From Verrucomicrobiota bacterium (GTDB taxonomy: Bacteria > Verrucomicrobiota > Kiritimatiellia > UBA8416 > JABMPJ01), in the NCBI GenBank assembly GCA_018648805.1, contig JABGQM010000015.1:1-64000 (forward strand): a stretch of 64,000 nt of DNA. Direction: 5' to 3'. The notes beneath the pieces were generated by a model. That model was not told where the DNA came from. It worked only from the letters and a program-made list of their open reading frames with translations, and ran no database searches. This document shows positions 51,973-61,984 of this stretch, piece after piece. The position numbers were made by a program, and so were the translations under genes. Each line of letters begins with the position of its first letter. Position 1 is the first letter of the stretch.

Positions 51973-54900
51973 ATGAAGAAGACAATGAGCTATCTGATGA
52001 CATTTCTGGTACTGGCGGCTGCGAGCACTTCGTTCGCCTCGACGGTCAACCTGGGCACGCTGACGTCGTTCACGGGCGGCGATGCTGGCGAGGGCATTGA
52101 CCTGACCGGGAACATCGTCTACGCCTTCAACCTGGGGCCAGGATCGGCCGAGACGGTACAGGGGGTGACCTTCGCCGCCGCGCCCAATACAGCTCCGCCT
52201 GCAGGGCTCACCACCACTGCTGGATACCAGATCTACTATCCGGACGCACAAGGTGGATTGACCGGTGCCAATTACGGTTCCACTGCCAACGACGATGCCC
52301 TGGAAGCGATTATTAACAACATCTGGTACGACCTTACCGCTGGCTGCACGTTCGACCTGGCCGTCGTGTCGGGCACCCAGTACAAGCTGCAGCTCATTTT
52401 GCAAGAGGCCTATAGGCCCAGCCAGGGAACAGCGGGTCGCAATTTTGATGTTTCGGTTGAGACCGCCTCGCCCTCGACGCTGAGCCTGGCCGTCGACGAT
52501 CTGGTGCTCTCGATGGAAACGAACGGCGACGCGGAGGCCGGACCTGACCAGGGCCTGGTCTACAGCTACACCTTCACGGCCGCCGACACCTCCTTCCGGG
52601 TGGGGTTGGTAGGTGTGGGTGGCAGCCTGGTGATCATCGGTGGCGTGACGCTGGAGGAATTGCCTGCCCCCGCCTCTCCGGCTGTCACGCTGGATGGCAG
52701 CGAGACGGGCGGCAGCGTTGCCAGTACCGCTCCATTGGCCACGCAGGTTGGGGTCTTGAGCATGGTCAACACCAATCCCGTTGGCTTTGCCTATTCGCTG
52801 CACGCGAGCGGTGACATGACGCACTTCGATATTCCTGTCGGCACAAGTAACCTGGTCACTGCCGCGGCCCTCACTGCCAGTTCGTACGACATCGTCGTGT
52901 TGGCGACCAACGCAAGCGACGGTTTCTGGACGACCAACAGCTTGACGATTGACGTCGATTTTCCTGACGTGGCCACGGGCGGCAATTCAACGAATGATAT
53001 CGGCGGCTACCGGATCCACACCTTCACGAGTAGCGGAAGCTTTAATGTCTTGGCTGGCGGCAATGTCGAGGTGCTGGTCGTCGCTGGCGGCGGCGGCGGT
53101 GGCGCTTATTACTACGCTGGCGGCGGTGGCGCTGGCGGCTTTGTGACGAACAATGCCTACTCTGTTCTTGTGAACAACTACACGGTCACGGTCGGCGCGG
53201 GCGGCCCCGGCGCGGCGGCGGGAAGCGGCTCCAGTGGCGGCGACTCAATCTTCGATACGATCACCGCATACGGCGGCGGCGGCGGTGGCGGTGCCACAAC
53301 CGGGTATACCGGGACGCCCCCCGGTTCCGGCGGTTCCGGTGGCGGGGCAAGCCACATGTTGGGTTCATCCGGCGGAACGGCAACTCCGGCCGGCCAGGGC
53401 AATGACGGAGGGGCCAGCAATCCCGCCGACGGCGGCGGCGGTGGTGGCGGCGCCGGCGCTCCAGGCGAGGTCGCAAATGCGGCAGGTACTCAAAACGGCG
53501 GCGATGGTGGCGCGGGACTGTCTAGCTCGATTTCGGGCTCCCCGCAGGACTACGCGGGTGGCGGCGGCGGCGGCGCCATGGGGTTCCCGTCAGTCGGCAC
53601 ACCCGGTGCCGGCGGCAGCAATGTCGGCGGTACTGGCGGTTTCGGTTCGACGGTCCCGACGGCGGGGACCGCGAACACCGGCGGCGGTGGAGGCGGTGCC
53701 AGCGGGTATCCGGCCCCCACCCACGGCGGGGCTTCCGGCGGATCAGGCATCGTGATCGTGCGCTATGTCTTTCCACCTGTGCCGGCTGGCCCCGCTGACC
53801 CCGCCGTGACATTGGACGGCAGCGAGACGGCTGACAGCATTGCCACCAACGCGTCCGTGGGCACGCTGGTTGGGGTGTTGAGTATGGCCGACACCAATTC
53901 CGCCGGTTTTGCCTATGCGTTGGACGCGGGCGACACGAGTTACTTCGACATCGTCAACACGAGCAACCTGGTGACCAAGCTGGCACTCGATGCCGCATCG
54001 TATTCGCTCGACATCGAGGGCACCAAGGGCGGCTTCTCGGTCACCAACAGCTTCACGATCACGGTCACGGACCCCGTCACCGTTCTCCTGTCCAGCGCCA
54101 CGGTGCTCGCCGGTGAGCCGGCGGACACGACGGTAGGGGCCTTGAGCATGTCCAACGCCGTCACGGGCGACTTCGTGTTTTCGCTGCACTCGAGCGGCGA
54201 CACGAACACGTTCAAGATTTCAGACGGCACCAACCTGACTACGAAGGTGCAGATGCCCGCCTCCGCGGGCAGCTACGACATCGTCGTCCTGGCGACCAAT
54301 GCCACCGACGGGTTCTGGGTCACCAACGGCCTGACGATTGACGTGCTCGGCCTTGTCACGGCCACGGGTGGCGACACGACCCAGGATATTGACGGCTACC
54401 GAATCCACACCTTCACGAACGGCGGGACGCTTACGGTCACGGCCGGCGGCGAGGTCGAGATGCTGATCGTCGGTGGCGGCGGCGCAGGCGGAACGAGCGG
54501 CGGTGCGGGCGGTGGCGCGGGTGGCATGGTTACCGGAACAACGATTGTCGCCGTCTCTGGCCACGCGGTGGTTGTGGGTGGCGGCGGCGCCGCCGTCGGC
54601 AACAACGGCACCAATAGCAGTTTCGCAGGCTTCACCGGAATCGGTGGTGGTGGCGGCGGCAGTGGCTCGGGTGACGGGGGCGACGGTGGCTGTGGCGGCG
54701 GCGGCGGTGGCCTTGGTGTCTCGAGTGGCGGTATTGGGAGTCAGGGCTTCAATGGCGGCATGGGCGTGAGCTTCGGCGCTGGCGGCGGCGGTGGCGCGTC
54801 GGAACCGGGAGTGAATGGCACGGGCGGGAATGTCTCGGGTCGTGGCGGCGATGGCCTGGCGTCGGCACTCTCTGGAACGTCGACCTATTACGCCCAGGGC

Positions 54901-55404
54901 GGGGCCGGATATTTCGCGGCGAACCCTCCCAATAAAGGCGGCGGCGGGGATTCCATCAACGGGGGAGTCGGCGAGCCGGGTGACCCGAACACCGGTGGCG
55001 GTGGCGGCGCGGACGGCGGCGGCGGCTTCTGGCTCCGGTGGATCTGGCATCGTGATCGTGCGCTATGCCTTGCCGTCCCCACCGGAAATGAACGTCACGG
55101 GCAACGGAGTGAGCATTGCCGACGGCGAAACCGCAACGGCCACATCAAATCACACCGATTTCGCGACTGCCATTGTGGGTGTCAGCACGGTGGTGCGCAC
55201 CTTTACGATCGAAAATACCGACGACGGTACGCTGTCGCTGACCGGTACGCCGGTGGTCGCGATCTCGGGTACCCATTCGAACGACTTCACGGTGACGGTC
55301 AATCCGACCAATTCGATTGCGGGCATGACCTCGACGACCTTCCAGGTGACCTTCGATCCGCTGGCTGCGGGAGCGCGCACGGCTATGGTGAGCATCGCCA
55401 ATGA
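51973..55404 (+). CDS. Giant modular secreted protein, 5-prime part (frameshifted)
   Basis: The open frame has 1143 codons, but only the first ~1017 belong to the protein; beyond about 55024 the translation is a shifted shadow. Signal peptide at 1-24; a malectin-like domain to about 235; cadherin-like units beginning PAVTLDGSETGG (235) and PAVTLDGSETADS (610), with a further one near 700; glycine-rich domains at about 333-600 and 793 onward, each opening DIGGYRIHTFT or similar and closing GIVIVRY. The second glycine-rich domain is cut in its GGC tract at 55015-55026, and its GIVIVRY ending appears in the other frame. A surface-exposed adhesin or matrix protein is likely. Confidence 0.7.
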   Translation: MKKTMSYLMTFLVLAAASTSFASTVNLGTLTSFTGGDAGEGIDLTGNIVYAFNLGPGSAETVQGVTFAAAPNTAPPAGLTTTAGYQIYYPDAQGGLTGANYGSTANDDALEAIINNIWYDLTAGCTFDLAVVSGTQYKLQLILQEAYRPSQGTAGRNFDVSVETASPSTLSLAVDDLVLSMETNGDAEAGPDQGLVYSYTFTAADTSFRVGLVGVGGSLVIIGGVTLEELPAPASPAVTLDGSETGGSVASTAPLATQVGVLSMVNTNPVGFAYSLHASGDMTHFDIPVGTSNLVTAAALTASSYDIVVLATNASDGFWTTNSLTIDVDFPDVATGGNSTNDIGGYRIHTFTSSGSFNVLAGGNVEVLVVAGGGGGGAYYYAGGGGAGGFVTNNAYSVLVNNYTVTVGAGGPGAAAGSGSSGGDSIFDTITAYGGGGGGGATTGYTGTPPGSGGSGGGASHMLGSSGGTATPAGQGNDGGASNPADGGGGGGGAGAPGEVANAAGTQNGGDGGAGLSSSISGSPQDYAGGGGGGAMGFPSVGTPGAGGSNVGGTGGFGSTVPTAGTANTGGGGGGASGYPAPTHGGASGGSGIVIVRYVFPPVPAGPADPAVTLDGSETADSIATNASVGTLVGVLSMADTNSAGFAYALDAGDTSYFDIVNTSNLVTKLALDAASYSLDIEGTKGGFSVTNSFTITVTDPVTVLLSSATVLAGEPADTTVGALSMSNAVTGDFVFSLHSSGDTNTFKISDGTNLTTKVQMPASAGSYDIVVLATNATDGFWVTNGLTIDVLGLVTATGGDTTQDIDGYRIHTFTNGGTLTVTAGGEVEMLIVGGGGAGGTSGGAGGGAGGMVTGTTIVAVSGHAVVVGGGGAAVGNNGTNSSFAGFTGIGGGGGGSGSGDGGDGGCGGGGGGLGVSSGGIGSQGFNGGMGVSFGAGGGGGASEPGVNGTGGNVSGRGGDGLASALSGTSTYYAQGGAGYFAANPPNKGGGGDSINGGVGEPGDPNTGGGGGADGGGGFWLRWIWHRDRALCLAVPTGNERHGQRSEHCRRRNRNGHIKSHRFRDCHCGCQHGGAHLYDRKYRRRYAVADRYAGGRDLGYPFERLHGDGQSDQFDCGHDLDDLPGDLRSAGCGSAHGYGEHRQ

Positions 55405-58400
55405 CGACGCCGACGAGGATCCCTACAACTTCACGATTGAAGGCCTCGGCCTGGCTGCGGTTGCGGAAATCAATGTCACGGGCGACGGGGTGGATATCCC
55501 CGACGATGACACGACGCCGGACTCGGCCGATCATACCGATTTCGGTGGTACGCCTGAGGCTGGCGGGCAGCTGGTGCGGACGTTCACGGTTGAAAACAGC
55601 GGAACCGTGGCCCTGTCGCTGACCGGCACACCGGTCGTTGCGGTCTCGGGTACCCATTCGAACGACTTCACGGTGACGCTGGCTCCCACCAATTCGGTTG
55701 CATCGGGCACGTCGACGACCTTCCAGGTGACCTTCGATCCCTCGGCCCTGGGGCTGCGTACGGCGACGCTGAGCATCGCCAATGACGATCCGAACGAGGA
55801 TCCCTATGACTTCGCGATTCAGGGAACGGGGCATGATTTGGTTGTGGCCACGGGCGGCGACACGACGCAGGACATTGGCGGCTACCGGATCCACACCTTC
55901 CTGAGTGGCGGAACGCTAGATATCACAGCCGGTGGCGTTGTCGACGTGCTGGTCGTGGCTGGCGGTGGTGGTGGCGGCGGAACCATTGGTGGTGGCGGTG
56001 GCGCCGGTGGCTTCATCTCCCACAATGCGTACCTTGTTGTCAGCAACGGCTACACGGTGACGGTCGGCACCGGCGGCGGCGGCGGCGCCGCCGCCAGCAG
56101 CCTGCAAGGGACGAGTGGAACGAATTCGTCATTCGGTGCGTTGATCGCTTATGGTGGCGGCGGTGGTGGTGGATGGGCTGCGAATCCCGGGATCAGCGGC
56201 GGCTCCGGCGGTGGGTCTGCTAACTCAGCCCCAGTAGGATCGGCAACAAACGGCCAGGGCAATGTCGCCGGAATCGGGGACGGTAATGGCGGTGGTGGCG
56301 GCGGCGGTGCCGGCAGCGATGGGAGCGCGGGGACAAACGCACCGGTGAGCCTTGCTGGCCAAGGCGGTGCAGGGCTGGCGAGTGATCTATCTGGATCGAC
56401 CGTCTATTATGCGGGCGGAGGCGGTGGCGGCGCACGAAACCCAAATAGTGACGCTGGGGCGGGCGGCATAGGGGGCGGAGGCAGTGGATCCGACACAACG
56501 TTCGGTGGAGCCGCGGATCCAAACACTGGTGGCGGTGGTGGTGGTGGCGCCTATAATGCCGGTAATCAAGCTGGCGGCGCCGGCGGCTCCGGCATCGTGA
56601 TCGTGCGCTATCTTCGGTTACCCGTACCGGAAATAAACGTCACGGGCAACGAACTGGATATTCCCGACGGCGAAACGGCAACGGCCACATCTAATGACAC
56701 CGATTTCGGGACTGCTATTGTGGGTATCAGCACGGTGGTGCACACCTTTACGATCGAAAACACCGACAACGGCACGCTGTCGCTGACCGGTACGCCGGTG
56801 GTCGCGATCTCGGGTACCCATTCGAACGACTTCACGGTGACGGTCAATCCGACCAATTCGATTGCGGGCATGACCTCGACGACCTTCCAGGTGACCTTTG
56901 ATCCGTTGGCTGCGGGAGCGCGGACGGGGACGGTGAGCATCGCCAATAACGATGCCGATGAGAATCCCTACGACTTCATGATTGAAGGCCTGGGCGTGCC
57001 CCCGGAACCTGAGATGAATCTCACAGGCAATGGCGAGGATATTGCCGACAGTGACAGCTCACCGACCCCGGCCGATCACACTGATTTTGAGTCGGCTGTC
57101 GTGACCTCCGGCACGGTGGTGCGGACGTTCACCATCGAAAACACGGGCGACGGCACGCTGTCGCTCACAGGTGCACCGGTGGTCGTGGTGTCGGGGACGC
57201 ATTCGAACGATTTCACGGTGTCGCAGGTTCCGACCAATTCGATTGCCGCAGGCACGTCGACCACCTTCCAGGTGACCTTCGATCCGTCGGACACCGGAAC
57301 GCGCACGGCGACGCTCAGTATCGCTAACGATGACAGCGACGAGGATCCCTACGACTTTGCGATCGAGGGGCTTGGCACGGCGGGCGCGGTACCGGAGATC
57401 AGTGTGTCGGGCAATGGGCAGGGGATCGCCGACGGCGACACCACGCCGACCTCGGATGATCATACCTACTTCGGCGTTGCGGCGGTGAGTGGGGACACGG
57501 TGGCGCGGACCTACACGATCGAGAACATCGGTCTCGGTGCGCTGTCGCTGACCGGTACGTCGCTCGTGGTGGTCTCGGGTACGCATTCGGGCGACTTCAC
57601 GGTGTCGCAGGATCCGGCCAACTCGGTTGCGGCGAGTGGCTCGACCACCTTCGAGGTGACATTCGATCCGTTGGCCGCGGGAACACGCACGGCCACCCTC
57701 AGCATCGCCAATAACGATGCCGACGAGGATCCCTACAACTTCGCGATTCAGGGATATGGCGACGCCGGGGTCCTCACCTCCTATGACCCATTCCCGTCGG
57801 ATCCCAATATCGCGGGCGCCTGGACGGAGTACGTTTACTGGACCGCAGACCAATTCACGCCCACCTGGAACAGCATTGACAAGGATCTGGACCTGTCGTT
57901 AACGGCAGGTGGTATAGGCGGGGCGAGCGGACTGTACCGCAGCGGCACCTCGCGCCTGCCCACCGATACCGTGACACTGACGGTCACATCACTTGGCAGG
58001 ACCAGTGGTGCCTGGGGGTTTGTGGGGGCAATGATCTCCGCCGTCGCTCAGCCGGGCTATACAACCACGGCCGACGATACATACTCGTTGCTGATGATAC
58101 CCGAAAGCGCCACGCATTTTCATTACGAGGTGCGTAAGACGTATCTAGACGGTACCCCCCCGGGCTACGCGGACTTCGTCCTGACCAACGGCCCCACCAC
58201 GGCGTTCACCGGTCCGTACACGAACGAGATCTCACGTGTCGGCGACCACTACGAGTTCAGAGCCAATGGCGCTTTGCTCTACACAACGGCCACCCCGGCG
58301 GTGGGCGACTTCTATGACCTCGCGGCCAGGGACTCCATGGCCTACTACCAGATCGTGATGGGTGCGAACGGCTCCACGACCGCGACGGTGGACGACTTCG

Positions 58401-59704
58401 GTGTGCCCGTCCCGATTGTCCCGGCCGTCACATTGGACGGTAGTGCCTCCCTGGACAGCATCGCGGGCAATGCGCCCGTGGGCACGTTGGTTGGGCCGTT
58501 GAGCATGATCAACACCAACCCCGCCGGGTTCGCCTATTCGCTGGATGCGGGCGACACGACGTACTTCGACATTCCCGGCGGAACCAGCAACCTGCTGGTC
58601 AAGGCGGCGCTCGGCGCTGGTCCGTACGCCCTCAAGATCGTGGGGACGAAGGGCGGTTTCTCGGTGACCAACGACTTCGTGATCACGGTTGCGGCGGATA
58701 TCAGCGTCGACCTGTCACACACCAACATGACGGCCAATGCTTCTGTGAGCACGCAGGTCGGGATCTTGAGCATGGTGGACGCTGTGTCGCCCGAGCAGTT
58801 CGCGTTCTCGCTGCATGCAAGCGGCGATACGACGCACTTCGACATTCCAGTCGGCACGAACACGCTGGTCACGGATGCGCCTCTCTCCATTGGCACCTAC
58901 GACATCGTCATCCTGGCGACCAACGCCACCGACGGGTTCTGGGTCACGAACGCCTTCACGATCGCCGTGGCGGGGACAGATCCGTTGCCGGCCGCGGTGC
59001 AGTACTGGCGCTTCGATGCTGGCAGCGGCAGTATCGCCTTCAATAGCGTCCCCGGTGGCAACACAGGCACATTGGTGTACTCACCCACCTGGATCAACAC
59101 CGGCCTTGAGCCGAAGCTGACCACACGCGACGCGCTGAATGGGCCGTCGACGGCCGCGCTGGATCTTGACCCGGGAGGCACGGCTGACTACGTCGATGGC
59201 GGCAACATCAGTTTGACCTCCACCGGCGGTGGTGGCGAGGTGACCGTCTCGATGTGGCTCAATCCCGATTCACTCGCCAGCGAGGCGCGGCTATTCACCC
59301 AGTCTACCGTCAGTGGCGCGACGAGTCAGCAAGGAACGACTGACGTGCTGGTCGATGGTCGTATCGCTGTCTGGAATGGCGGCGGCTACGTGTATCCTGC
59401 GCCGGTGGGCTCAGTGATTGTGGGCGTCTGGCAGCATCTTGCCTTTGTGTGGGATAGCGGACAGGTAACAGCTTACGTCGACGGTGTGCAGAAGTCGACC
59501 GCGACGGCGAACTTCGAGTTCGGCGCGGCAAACGGCGATTTCGGAATTGCCGCCGACCTGATCGGCCAGTATGGCGCCGGCATTGATGGCAAGATCGACG
59601 ACGTTGCCATCTTCGACGTCGCCCTGAACCAGAGCCAGGTCGTCGCATTGGCCAATGGTGAAGCACCGCCTGTGCCACAGGGAACCCTGTTTTTGTTCAG
59701 GTAG
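55025..59704 (+). CDS. Giant modular secreted protein, 3-prime part (other frame)
   Basis: About 1559 residues in the +1 frame, directly continuing the gene at 51973; together about 2576 residues. Domains in order: end of a glycine-rich domain (GSGGSGIVIVRYALP); two choice-of-anchor-D (ASPM/SPD-2/Hydin-like) repeats of about 125 residues with the SLTGTPVVAVSGTHSNDF core; a third glycine-rich domain (about 55845-56620); three more anchor-D repeats; a jelly-roll-like domain shared with the 59927 protein (57775-58420); two cadherin-like units; a LamG domain (about 58990-59660); and a terminal PQGTLFLFR. The frame has an earlier ATG at 54815, but homology begins only at 55025. Confidence 0.7.
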   Translation, partial: ASGSGGSGIVIVRYALPSPPEMNVTGNGVSIADGETATATSNHTDFATAIVGVSTVVRTFTIENTDDGTLSLTGTPVVAISGTHSNDFTVTVNPTNSIAGMTSTTFQVTFDPLAAGARTAMVSIANDDADEDPYNFTIEGLGLAAVAEINVTGDGVDIPDDDTTPDSADHTDFGGTPEAGGQLVRTFTVENSGTVALSLTGTPVVAVSGTHSNDFTVTLAPTNSVASGTSTTFQVTFDPSALGLRTATLSIANDDPNEDPYDFAIQGTGHDLVVATGGDTTQDIGGYRIHTFLSGGTLDITAGGVVDVLVVAGGGGGGGTIGGGGGAGGFISHNAYLVVSNGYTVTVGTGGGGGAAASSLQGTSGTNSSFGALIAYGGGGGGGWAANPGISGGSGGGSANSAPVGSATNGQGNVAGIGDGNGGGGGGGAGSDGSAGTNAPVSLAGQGGAGLASDLSGSTVYYAGGGGGGARNPNSDAGAGGIGGGGSGSDTTFGGAADPNTGGGGGGGAYNAGNQAGGAGGSGIVIVRYLRLPVPEINVTGNELDIPDGETATATSNDTDFGTAIVGISTVVHTFTIENTDNGTLSLTGTPVVAISGTHSNDFTVTVNPTNSIAGMTSTTFQVTFDPLAAGARTGTVSIANNDADENPYDFMIEGLGVPPEPEMNLTGNGEDIADSDSSPTPADHTDFESAVVTSGTVVRTFTIENTGDGTLSLTGAPVVVVSGTHSNDFTVSQVPTNSIAAGTSTTFQVTFDPSDTGTRTATLSIANDDSDEDPYDFAIEGLGTAGAVPEISVSGNGQGIADGDTTPTSDDHTYFGVAAVSGDTVARTYTIENIGLGALSLTGTSLVVVSGTHSGDFTVSQDPANSVAASGSTTFEVTFDPLAAGTRTATLSIANNDADEDPYNFAIQGYGDAGVLTSYDPFPSDPNIAGAWTEYVYWTADQFTPTWNSIDKDLDLSLTAGGIGGASGLYRSGTSRLPTDTVTLTVTSLGRTSGAWGFVGAMISAVAQPGYTTTADDTYSLLMIPESATHFHYEVRKTYLDGTPPGYADFVLTNGPTTAFTGPYTNEISRVGDHYEFRANGALLYTTATPAVGDFYDLAARDSMAYYQIVMGANGSTTATVDDFGVPVPIVPAVTLDGSASLDSIAGNAPVGTLVGPLSMINTNPAGFAYSLDAGDTTYFDIPGGTSNLLVKAALGAGPYALKIVGTKGGFSVTNDFVITVAADISVDLSHTNMTANASVSTQVGILSMVDAVSPEQFAFSLHASGDTTHFDIPVGTNTLVTDAPLSIGTYDIVILATNATDGFWVTNAFTIAVAGTDPLPAAVQYWRFDAGSGSIAFNSVPGGNTGTLVYSPTWINTGLEPKLTTRDALNGPSTAALDLDPGGTADYVDGGNISLTSTGGGGEVTVSMWLNPDSLASEARLFTQSTVSGATSQQGTTDVLVDGRIAVWNGGGYVYPAPVGSVIVGVWQHLAFVWDSGQVTAYVDGVQKSTATANFEFGAANGDFGIAADLIGQYGAGIDGKIDDVAIFDVALNQSQVVALANGEAPPVPQGTLFLFR

Positions 59705-59782
59705 GCAGTAATCACTGGCATAGCTGGATGGCGTGATCAGCGGCCACCACCGTGCTTGCCCCGGGGGGCTATAGTGGTCCCC

Positions 59783-59834
59783 TGCGCAAACAGGAAAAAG
59801 TTTGTGCGCAAAAGTGGGTAGTCTGCCGCTTGCC
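59783..59834 (+). promoter_or_regulatory. TGCGCA-22-TGCGCA element, copy 3 (second modular protein)
   Basis: TGCGCA at 59783 and at 59805, with CAGGAAAAAG in between, then AAGTGGGTAGTCTGCCGC and TTGCC. It ends about 92 bases before the start at 59927. Nothing else is recognised in the 222-bp gap. Confidence 0.7.
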
Positions 59835-59926
59835 ATCCTTCGCATAATGGGCGGCACGGTTGGGAAGGAACACTTGAGCGAAGAGCGGTGACATGATGAT
59901 GTCCTGCAAAATGCGGAGATGAGAAG

Positions 59927-61984
59927 ATGAAAAATCACACAATGATCAGAAGATTAGTCAACGTCGTGGCCATCGCTGTTATGGCGACTGCAAACGTGTC
60001 GATCGCGCAAGTCATCAATGTCGACATCCAGGGGACACAGTATGGCAATGTCGCTCCAGGTATTGCAGACTACACGGGAGCCAGTGCGAATGGCCCGATT
60101 GTGTCGGGTACGACATGGAACTACTTCAATGTAGGTGGCACTGTACCAAACGGACAGTCCCTATTGAATCTGAATGACGACAGCGGGGCGACGACCACGG
60201 TGGACGTCGCGTTCGGCACTGGCTGGCTCGGATCGTTCGCAGACGGCGCACCCAATAACCTGCAGGGGGATCGAACATTCATCAATACTGGAGTCACCGG
60301 AACTTTCACGATCAGCGGGCTTGACATCAGCAAGGACTACAACCTCGCATTGATTACCGGGGTCAGCAGCGGCTTCGGAACGGACTTTACCGCGGGCGGG
60401 ACGACGAAGACTGCAACCGCTGTCGCCGGCGCTGGCGCTAACGCCAACGGGCCGCTGCTCACGTTTACCAACGGAGTGTCGCATGTGCTGTTCAGCGGAC
60501 TCGACGGCAGCACCGGCAGCATCACGTTTTCAGTGACCGATTCGGCTGTCGGCGTTAACGGCGTCTTGGCCGGACTGCAAATTGAGGTGGCGGGGGCCGA
60601 CCTGGACGATCCGGTCATCACCACCCTCGATCCGGCCAATGGCGCTACGGTCGGTGTAGCACTGGATGCGAATCTCGTGGTGACCTTCGACGAGTCCGTC
60701 GCCTTTGGCACCGGCGACATCACGCTGCGGACGAGCGGCGGCGGTCTGGTGGAGGCCTTTGATGTGACCAGCTCGCCCAATCTTTCGCTGGCCGGCACGA
60801 CGGTTACGATCGATCCCACCAACAACCTCGTCGGGGGCAACAGTTACTACGTGGAGATTGCCGCGACCGCGATTGACGATCTCTCTGGTAACAGCTTTGC
60901 GGGAATCAGCGGCTCCACGACCTGGAGCTTCAGCCCCGACACCACAGCACCCTCCATCGACACCCTCGTCCCTGCCAATGGTGCGCCTGACGCCTCATAC
61001 CTCAGCAGCCTCGTCATCACCTTCGATGAAAATGTGCAGAAGGGAACCGGCAACATCGTGATCAGGCAAGTCAGCGGTGGGACGGTGGTAGATACCATCG
61101 ATGTGATCAGCGGCAATGTGACGGTGAGTGGAGCCCAGGTGACGATCACGTCTGGAGCAGGCCTTCCTCAGCTAACCTCCTTGTATGTCGAAATCGATGC
61201 CACCGCCATCGATGATCTCGCCGGCAACAGCTTCGCGGGGATCAGTGGCTCCGGAACATGGAGTTTCACGACAGCAGGAATTGTACGCTTTCACGACTTC
61301 AACACGGACCCCGGCCTCTCGACGGGTTGGGATGCCTATAAGTACTATCTCAAAAACAGCCCGGACACTCTCACAGAGTATGCGACGTGGAGTGGTAGCG
61401 ACCTCAGTTTCACCTCTCCTGACAGCGGGGCAACCCCAGCTACCGACTGGGCCGAGGGGATCTCTCTCGTGGAGGCCACGCGGACCCCGACCGAGCCAGT
61501 GACCCTGACGGTTAAGGCTCTTGCTGGGACCAGCGGCAGCTGGGGGTTTGTGGGGCTGATGATCTCCGTGGTCGCCGAAGCGAGTTATGTCGTCTCTGGC
61601 GACGACACCTACTCGCTTGTTCTTATACCCGAGAGCGCCACGCATTTTCATTACGAGGTGCGCAAGGCCTATCTGGACGGCACCGCCCCCTCCTACGTGG
61701 ACTTCGTACTGACCAACGGCCCCTCCACTGAGTTTACCGGTCCCTATGTAATAGATATCGTGCGCAACGGTGATGGGAACTATGAGTTCCTGGCCGACGG
61801 GGATCTGCTCTACACGTCGGGTGACGTTGCAGCCGATACCTATGATGCTTCCGTCAAAGACTCGATGGTCTACTACCAGATCCTGTTTGGCGCTCAAAGA
61901 GCCCAGACCGCCACGGTCGACGATTTTGGCGTGCCGTATGTAGCGCCCCCGCAGCCCTCCCGGACGCTGTTCATAATCCGGTGA
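59927..61984 (+). CDS. Secreted modular protein with SbsA Ig-like domains
   Basis: 685 residues. Signal peptide (about 1-27); an N-terminal beta-rich domain to about 220; two Big_5/SbsA Ig-like domains beginning PVITTLDPANGATVGVALDA and APSIDTLVPANGAPDASYLS, each with an ATAIDDLSGNSFAGISGS- or ATAIDDLAGNSFAGISGS-type end; a ~215-residue jelly-roll-like domain nearly matching that of the giant protein (shared IPESATHFHYEVRK, DFVLTNGP and TATVDDFGVP); and a C-terminus PSRTLFIIR. No catalytic motif is visible. Likely a surface or matrix protein made together with, or alternately to, the giant one. Confidence 0.75.
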   Translation: MKNHTMIRRLVNVVAIAVMATANVSIAQVINVDIQGTQYGNVAPGIADYTGASANGPIVSGTTWNYFNVGGTVPNGQSLLNLNDDSGATTTVDVAFGTGWLGSFADGAPNNLQGDRTFINTGVTGTFTISGLDISKDYNLALITGVSSGFGTDFTAGGTTKTATAVAGAGANANGPLLTFTNGVSHVLFSGLDGSTGSITFSVTDSAVGVNGVLAGLQIEVAGADLDDPVITTLDPANGATVGVALDANLVVTFDESVAFGTGDITLRTSGGGLVEAFDVTSSPNLSLAGTTVTIDPTNNLVGGNSYYVEIAATAIDDLSGNSFAGISGSTTWSFSPDTTAPSIDTLVPANGAPDASYLSSLVITFDENVQKGTGNIVIRQVSGGTVVDTIDVISGNVTVSGAQVTITSGAGLPQLTSLYVEIDATAIDDLAGNSFAGISGSGTWSFTTAGIVRFHDFNTDPGLSTGWDAYKYYLKNSPDTLTEYATWSGSDLSFTSPDSGATPATDWAEGISLVEATRTPTEPVTLTVKALAGTSGSWGFVGLMISVVAEASYVVSGDDTYSLVLIPESATHFHYEVRKAYLDGTAPSYVDFVLTNGPSTEFTGPYVIDIVRNGDGNYEFLADGDLLYTSGDVAADTYDASVKDSMVYYQILFGAQRAQTATVDDFGVPYVAPPQPSRTLFIIR

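Follow-up and report, generated by a model that had tools for sequence, protein, structure and literature searches.

What routes two neighbouring secreted proteins to their destination, when their last domains differ and their last seven residues are nearly the same? The question is raised by positions 1 to 64,000 of contig JABGQM010000015.1 (assembly GCA_018648805.1, a Verrucomicrobiota bacterium of the class Kiritimatiellia), a stretch of 64,000 nucleotides analysed whole and called the window here. A giant Gly-rich protein and a 685-residue protein encoded in it end in GTLFLFR and RTLFIIR, respectively. A sequence-only reading had suggested that these endings form a sorting or anchoring signal. 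The tail proved to be recurrent, conserved at the amino-acid level, present on many folds, restricted to a clade and devoid of a membrane helix. It resembles an address label, not named before, for export or for attachment to the cell surface. We consider it probable that the tail is a modular C-terminal sorting tag, used after Sec export by a shared outer-membrane machine. In the literature, judged by titles and abstract openings and with subscription journals mostly outside its scope, no description of a tail of this kind was found for these bacteria.

The tail and the last folded domain of the two window proteins

The features of the two genes, with the basis of each assignment, were as follows.

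51973..55404, + strand: first frame of the giant protein (open reading frame (ORF) list, Pfam, DNA around the frame change)
~55015..55026, + strand: GGC repeat, site of the reading-frame change in the giant protein (three-frame translation)
54815..59704, + strand: second frame of the giant protein, 1629 aa (ORF list, Pfam, NCBIfam)
57761..58423, + strand: shared domain, copy 1, internal, without a tail behind it (tblastn in the own genome; alignment)
59177..59641, + strand: LamG (PF13385), complete, profile positions 2-150 of 151 (Pfam, converted from residues 1455-1609)
59642..59680, + strand: proline-containing linker (..EAPPVPQ) ahead of the tail (sequence)
59681..59701, + strand: C-terminal tag GTLFLFR, then stop TAG (sequence)
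59927..61984, + strand: 685-aa secreted protein (ORF list, Pfam)
61271..61951, + strand: shared domain, copy 2, the last domain before the tail (tblastn in the own genome; alignment)
61961..61981, + strand: C-terminal tag RTLFIIR, then stop TGA (sequence)

The giant protein was found to be split by a frameshift. Its first frame, which carries a clear Sec signal peptide (MKKTMSYLMTFLVLAAASTSFAS..) and two Gly_rich_2 matches in Pfam, loses the reading frame at the GGC repeat, near 55.02 kb, owing either to an assembly error or to a real frameshift or slippage. The second frame comprises five choice-of-anchor D / HYDIN-like immunoglobulin (Ig) domains, Gly_rich_2, the shared domain, LamG, the linker and the tail, and its C-terminus reads ..EAPPVPQGTLFLFR. 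The 685-aa protein consists of a signal peptide, two Big_5 Ig-like domains, the shared domain, a linker and the tail, and its C-terminus reads ..YVAPPQPSRTLFIIR. Both proteins thus bear the C-terminal tag that had been noted in them, and their final domains differ as described: a complete LamG in the giant protein and the shared domain in the other.

The shared domain spans about 225 residues, and its two copies matched with E = 1.6e-62 (tblastn, own genome). Their identity was 53-56% (56% in the genome search, 55% in the alignment and 53% in tblastn), so that, as judged by this comparison, the homology of the copies is certain, although the earlier description of a nearly matching domain of ~215 residues was too strongly worded. 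The own genome holds exactly two copies, and tblastn against 3.04 Mb of DNA returned no further one. Pfam and NCBIfam scans listed no family with its best stretch in this domain, a profile search against PDB sequences returned nothing significant, and no match was obtained in the plasmid collection. The AlphaFold model of the domain was unusable (mean pLDDT 32.6) and lends no support to the jelly-roll-like fold suggested earlier.

Copy 1 of the shared domain continues into VPIVPAVT.., whereas copy 2 continues into YVAPPQPSRTLFIIR. The Pfam match to LamG ends at residue 1609 of 1629, i.e. 20 residues short of the C-terminus. Because the shared domain is found both in front of the tail and without it, and the tail stands behind two unlike final domains, it is, on the evidence of these alignments, not a component of the last folded domain. 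The sequence-only reading would have lost ground had the residues belonged to that fold; the internal, tail-less copy in the giant protein speaks for the opposite.

Recurrence of the tail in the own genome and in a relative

A search of the own genome for GT[hydrophobic]4R followed by a stop gave 11 matches versus 0 for the control, the same pattern read backwards. All 11 matches lay at ORF ends, ten of them on ORFs of more than 200 aa with otherwise different domains and the eleventh on an ORF of 85 aa. With position 5 left free, the counts were 17 and 1; only the 11 strict matches were inspected. The ending is therefore found on further secreted proteins of this genome besides those of the window, and the sequence-only reading withstands this check too, although its original wording, TLF[LI][FI]R, is too narrow. 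The generalised tail has seven residues, G-T-h-h-x-h-R-COOH, where h is hydrophobic.

The tail also emerged without any choice of motif. All residue pairs in the last 12 positions were compared with expectation from composition in 277 ORFs from 398 kb of the relative G049, where 16 ORFs are tagged. The top three pairs were G-7/R-1 (19 seen, 2.3 expected), T-6/R-1 (15 and 1.3) and G-7/T-6 (15 and 1.3), with p values of 4e-12 to 8e-12, and R at -1 was itself enriched (52 versus 24.9 expected). A 464-kb sample of the own genome, too thin with its five tags in 362 ORFs, gave only a weak P-9/R-1 pair, and the pair signal was absent from two tag-negative samples. None of the tag endings or their variants occurred among the 608 ORFs that six tag-negative samples of 100-200 kb contain together. 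Since G049 tolerates a polar residue at position 5 (GTVIQIR, GTLIQIR and GTVMTIR), the motif was written with this position free.

Carrier proteins

Across the genomes, 143 distinct matching C-termini were collected, 117 of them on ORFs that either reach 150 aa or are cut by a contig edge; 24 lay on closed frames shorter than 100 aa and are probably chance matches or fragments. After removal of redundancy in the upstream 33 residues, 102 tagged C-termini remained, of which 43 have P at -9 and 31 are preceded by PP. The third (synonymous) codon positions of the tail vary freely, which points to selection on the protein rather than on the DNA, and a DNA-level repeat was ruled out as the origin of the tail on the same ground. 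The absence of a membrane helix, already remarked upon for the window proteins, was general: only 2 of the 102 reached the corresponding hydrophobicity (maximum 19-residue hydropathy above 1.6 within the last 45 aa).

Signal-peptide-like N-termini were recognised by a simple rule in 34 of 48 closed tagged ORFs; for untagged ORFs of G049, the count was 64 of 207. None of the eight own-genome tagged ORFs that are closed at the 5' end and no shorter than 150 aa, the window protein apart, was listed as lacking one. In Pfam, the ten further tagged proteins of the own genome showed Big_5, DUF642, Gly_rich_2, PATR and lamin tail domains and weak F5/8-C and fn3 matches, and two of them had no match. 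Choice-of-anchor Q stood directly ahead of the tail in 6 of 96 C-termini. The NCBI name 'choice-of-anchor' denotes modules that precede alternative anchoring signals, so the tail occupies the position where an anchor is expected. The choice-of-anchor domains themselves (NF012200 for D, NF041518 for Q), present repeatedly or just ahead of the tail in tagged proteins, are cargo modules rather than the signal. No sorting model of NCBIfam or Pfam accounted for the tails and no NCBIfam model was found that describes them; at E values up to 1, the 96 C-termini gave no PEP-CTERM match in NCBIfam and one weak match to srtB_target (E 0.096).

Distribution of the tail among genomes

The frequency of the tail was far above chance in the own genome and in the class. 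The strict pattern GTLFxxR gave 72 matches versus 9 for the control in 345 genomes of the class. In a sample of 230 genomes of the phylum, which is less biased than sets selected on the tail, there were 155 matches versus 30 in the 77 genomes of the class, 13 of which had four or more, and 48 versus 60 in the 153 genomes outside it, none of which had as many. A set of 16 genomes, partly picked for having matches, gave 197 versus 6. The 22 tag-positive genomes yielded 416 matches versus 45 and the 20 tag-negative ones 9 versus 19, a split that was selected on the tail itself and shows the contrast only. All these counts rest on mostly incomplete genomes. The tail was borne by families f1, f5, f18, f29, f35, f40, f47, f48 and f49 in the phylum sample and by f4, f7, f15 and f43 in the 16-genome set, while f17, f20, f25, f31, f39 and f41, also of the class, were at background. 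The tail is thus limited to some families of the class Kiritimatiellia.

A scan of named genomes with PPxGT[IVM]4R returned 14 loci, eight of which were convincing protein ends: L123, L125, L126, L128, L132 and L133, in metagenome-assembled genomes (MAGs) titled Kiritimatiellae or Lentisphaerae, L127 in an uncultured bacterium, and L121. The others were a contig-edge fragment (L129, uncultured bacterium), a Chloroflexi protein (L130) and four short frames. L121, from a MAG titled Akkermansia muciniphila, encodes a 1120-aa Gly-rich protein ending in PPPKGTVIMMR; its tag reflects contamination, mislabelling or transfer. The Chloroflexi ORF ends in DPPSGTVVVVR, probably by coincidence.

The tail as a putative sorting tag

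Recognition of the tail, export or anchoring, and the mode of strand binding were inferred from its anatomy and distribution. With a signal peptide of the usual kind, the tagged proteins would pass through the inner membrane by way of Sec. A single outer-membrane machine common to them all would then read the tail, which would lie exposed in the periplasm, often behind a proline linker; this machine may export the protein, anchor it to the surface, or both. Strand addition would be the most likely mode of recognition: an edge strand or a groove would take up the hydrophobic residues, and the register may be set by the final Arg, which is invariant and bears the free carboxylate, much as in motif E, the strand that closes type IX C-terminal domains (CTDs). 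That strand is the nearest functioning parallel among published systems. By this analogy, we propose that the tail could be captured like the last strand of a type IX CTD from which all other parts have been removed. A wider proposal is put forward more tentatively, at somewhat less than even confidence: part of the Kiritimatiellia may possess an undescribed outer-membrane system for export and surface display with a machine of its own, whose address would be the seven-residue G-T-h-h-x-h-R-COOH strand, lacking helix and folded signal domain, and which would, in a rich genome, route very large proteins by the dozen, both adhesin-like and glycan-binding ones.

C-terminal sorting tags opened the way to sortases, exosortases, rhombosortases and the type IX system. 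If the proposal is true, outer-membrane bacteria would have no simpler address of this sort than so short a tag with neither helix nor domain, and sequence alone would suffice to list the surface proteins of Kiritimatiellia, among them those of animal-associated members. Since neighbouring families differ, some bearing the tag and others lying at background, the machine could be found directly by phylogenetic profiling of whole proteomes.

Several observations weigh against a dedicated sorting tag. The number of tags per genome is uneven, and sampled stretches of the tag-positive genomes G304 and G002 (100 kb each) held none. The variants RTLFIIR, PTLLILR, ATLLMLR, STVILVR, GGVIVIR and GSLISVR depart from the motif, and since the search pattern forces G, T and R, the logo exaggerates their invariance. 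Fourteen of the 48 closed tagged ORFs lack a recognisable signal peptide, and not all of these are explained: the frameshift accounts for the second frame of the giant protein, and others look truncated. A partner protein was not found among the candidates SprA, PorV and exosortase, compared in 42 genomes; none of the three tracks the tag, and all were ruled out as partners. SprA (TIGR04189) was above cut-off in 0 of the 42, with one 20-bit match, in a search whose sensitivity is unproven because 14 control genomes gave no positive. The PorV family, likewise searched for with no clear positive control, was above cut-off in 0 of 42, and weak matches came from 8 of the 22 tag-positive genomes and from 11 of the 20 tag-negative ones. 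Exosortase was present in all 22 tag-positive genomes and in 19 of the 20 tag-negative ones. Hence, of the suggestions in the sequence-only reading, a sorting or anchoring role survived as an inference, with other secreted proteins tagged and the tail outside the last fold, whereas the co-occurring dedicated processing protein did not materialise. The likening to PEP-CTERM and type IX tails held as an analogy only, given the missing transmembrane helix, the lack of SprA or PorV above cut-off and the non-discriminating exosortase.

Alternative explanations

A degenerate or very short type IX-like CTD, read by a distant type IX machine, is an unlikely explanation, although there are likenesses: type IX CTDs are also post-Sec C-terminal signals on many unrelated adhesin-like carriers with a basic residue at the extreme C-terminus, and type B CTDs end in G-x-h-x-h-x-R. 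The tail, however, has 7 residues versus 40-80 and belongs to Kiritimatiellia-type genomes rather than Bacteroidota. The models TIGR04183 and TIGR04131, which we take to be those of type A and type B CTDs, had no match in the 96 C-termini (40 aa each, shorter than the models), and no CTD match was found in the whole proteins, i.e. the ten further tagged proteins of the own genome and the window's; the SprA and PorV results point the same way. PMC11969387 places motif E, with an absolutely conserved Lys/Arg, at the C-terminus and describes short CTDs of 40-51 residues in Prevotella intermedia that support cleavage and glycosylation; for Hbp35, it states that only the last 22 residues are absolutely required for secretion and attachment of green fluorescent protein. 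Type IX cargo is similar as well, with beta-helix, fn3 and choice-of-anchor proteins. The idea of a stripped-down PEP-CTERM signal served by the resident exosortases is quite improbable. According to PMC1569441, PEP-CTERM is a short C-terminal homology region with many copies per genome, diverse signal-peptide carriers and Pro in front, all of which the tail shares, and its Pro-rich stretch followed by G/S-T-L and an Arg is reminiscent of PEP-CTERM starts. Exosortase is encoded in 41 of the 42 genomes, and the own genome has two exosortase-TPR fusions. Yet the tail has a single Arg instead of a basic cluster and a stretch hydrophobic enough for a membrane helix in only 2 of 102 cases, and exosortase is found with or without it. 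Both the own genome (VPEPAEY.., L222) and G304 encode ordinary PEP-CTERM proteins alongside the tail, which makes the tail a separate class and rules it out as a PEP-CTERM replacement. MYXO-CTERM/myxosortase (PMC11980579) and GlyGly-CTERM/rhombosortase (PMC3237569) resemble the tail in that numerous proteins carry a sorting tag at the C-terminus, and MYXO-CTERM also in its restriction to a lineage. MYXO-CTERM differs in being tripartite: a motif whose Cys is invariant, then a membrane helix, then an end rich in Arg.

It is very unlikely that the tail is merely the final beta-strand of each protein's last domain, a structural coincidence. The hydrophobic pattern is compatible with a strand and many tagged proteins contain beta-rich modules, but the identical seven residues stand behind LamG, beta-helix, Gly-rich, Ig-like and other modules, the LamG profile is already complete 20 residues upstream, the internal shared domain has no tail, and the tail is restricted to a clade. 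Tail-specific proteases read hydrophobic C-termini, and a periplasmic degron or quality-control tag for such a protease could look similar; this is still less probable, since the tail is the encoded C-terminus of numerous full-length modular proteins, some of more than 1000 aa, for which constitutive degradation is implausible. Least probable of all is a signal for beta-barrel assembly (BAM), which a short hydrophobic C-terminal strand might suggest: barrel-like ends in the own genome finish in Phe (..TRWF, ..YRWDF) and the tail in Arg, and the tagged proteins bear lectin, Ig and beta-helix modules, not barrels.

Giant exosortase fusions

Exosortase frames of ~1340 aa or more were listed in 9 of the 22 tag-positive and 0 of the 20 tag-negative genomes. 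Five of them, read as ORFs (L221, L222, L231, L232 and L233), encode 1345-1413 aa, about 1000 residues beyond the exosortase; TPR repeats were present in the three that were scanned, and the Cys, Arg and His columns are kept. Two of them are located as follows.

L221:2947-6981, - strand: exosortase fusion (profile match, ORF)
L222:1750-5850, - strand: exosortase fusion (profile match, ORF)

The fusion was ruled out as the partner of the tag. Because one fusion adjoins a true PEP-CTERM protein and 13 of the 22 tag-positive genomes have no fusion, we take it to be a matter of PEP-CTERM. In three genomes, a barrel-like protein of 500-570 aa is encoded directly upstream of the fusion (L221:6974-8482, L231:5419-7038 and L232:4584-6290, all on the - strand), and one of these neighbours weakly matched TIGR03016, a PEP-CTERM-associated outer-membrane protein. 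In two genomes, the fusions have as neighbours PEP-CTERM proteins that resemble each other and carry ..MVPEPAEY.. close to the end (L222:947-1687, + strand, and L233:5509-6228, - strand); these are candidates for dedicated pairs.

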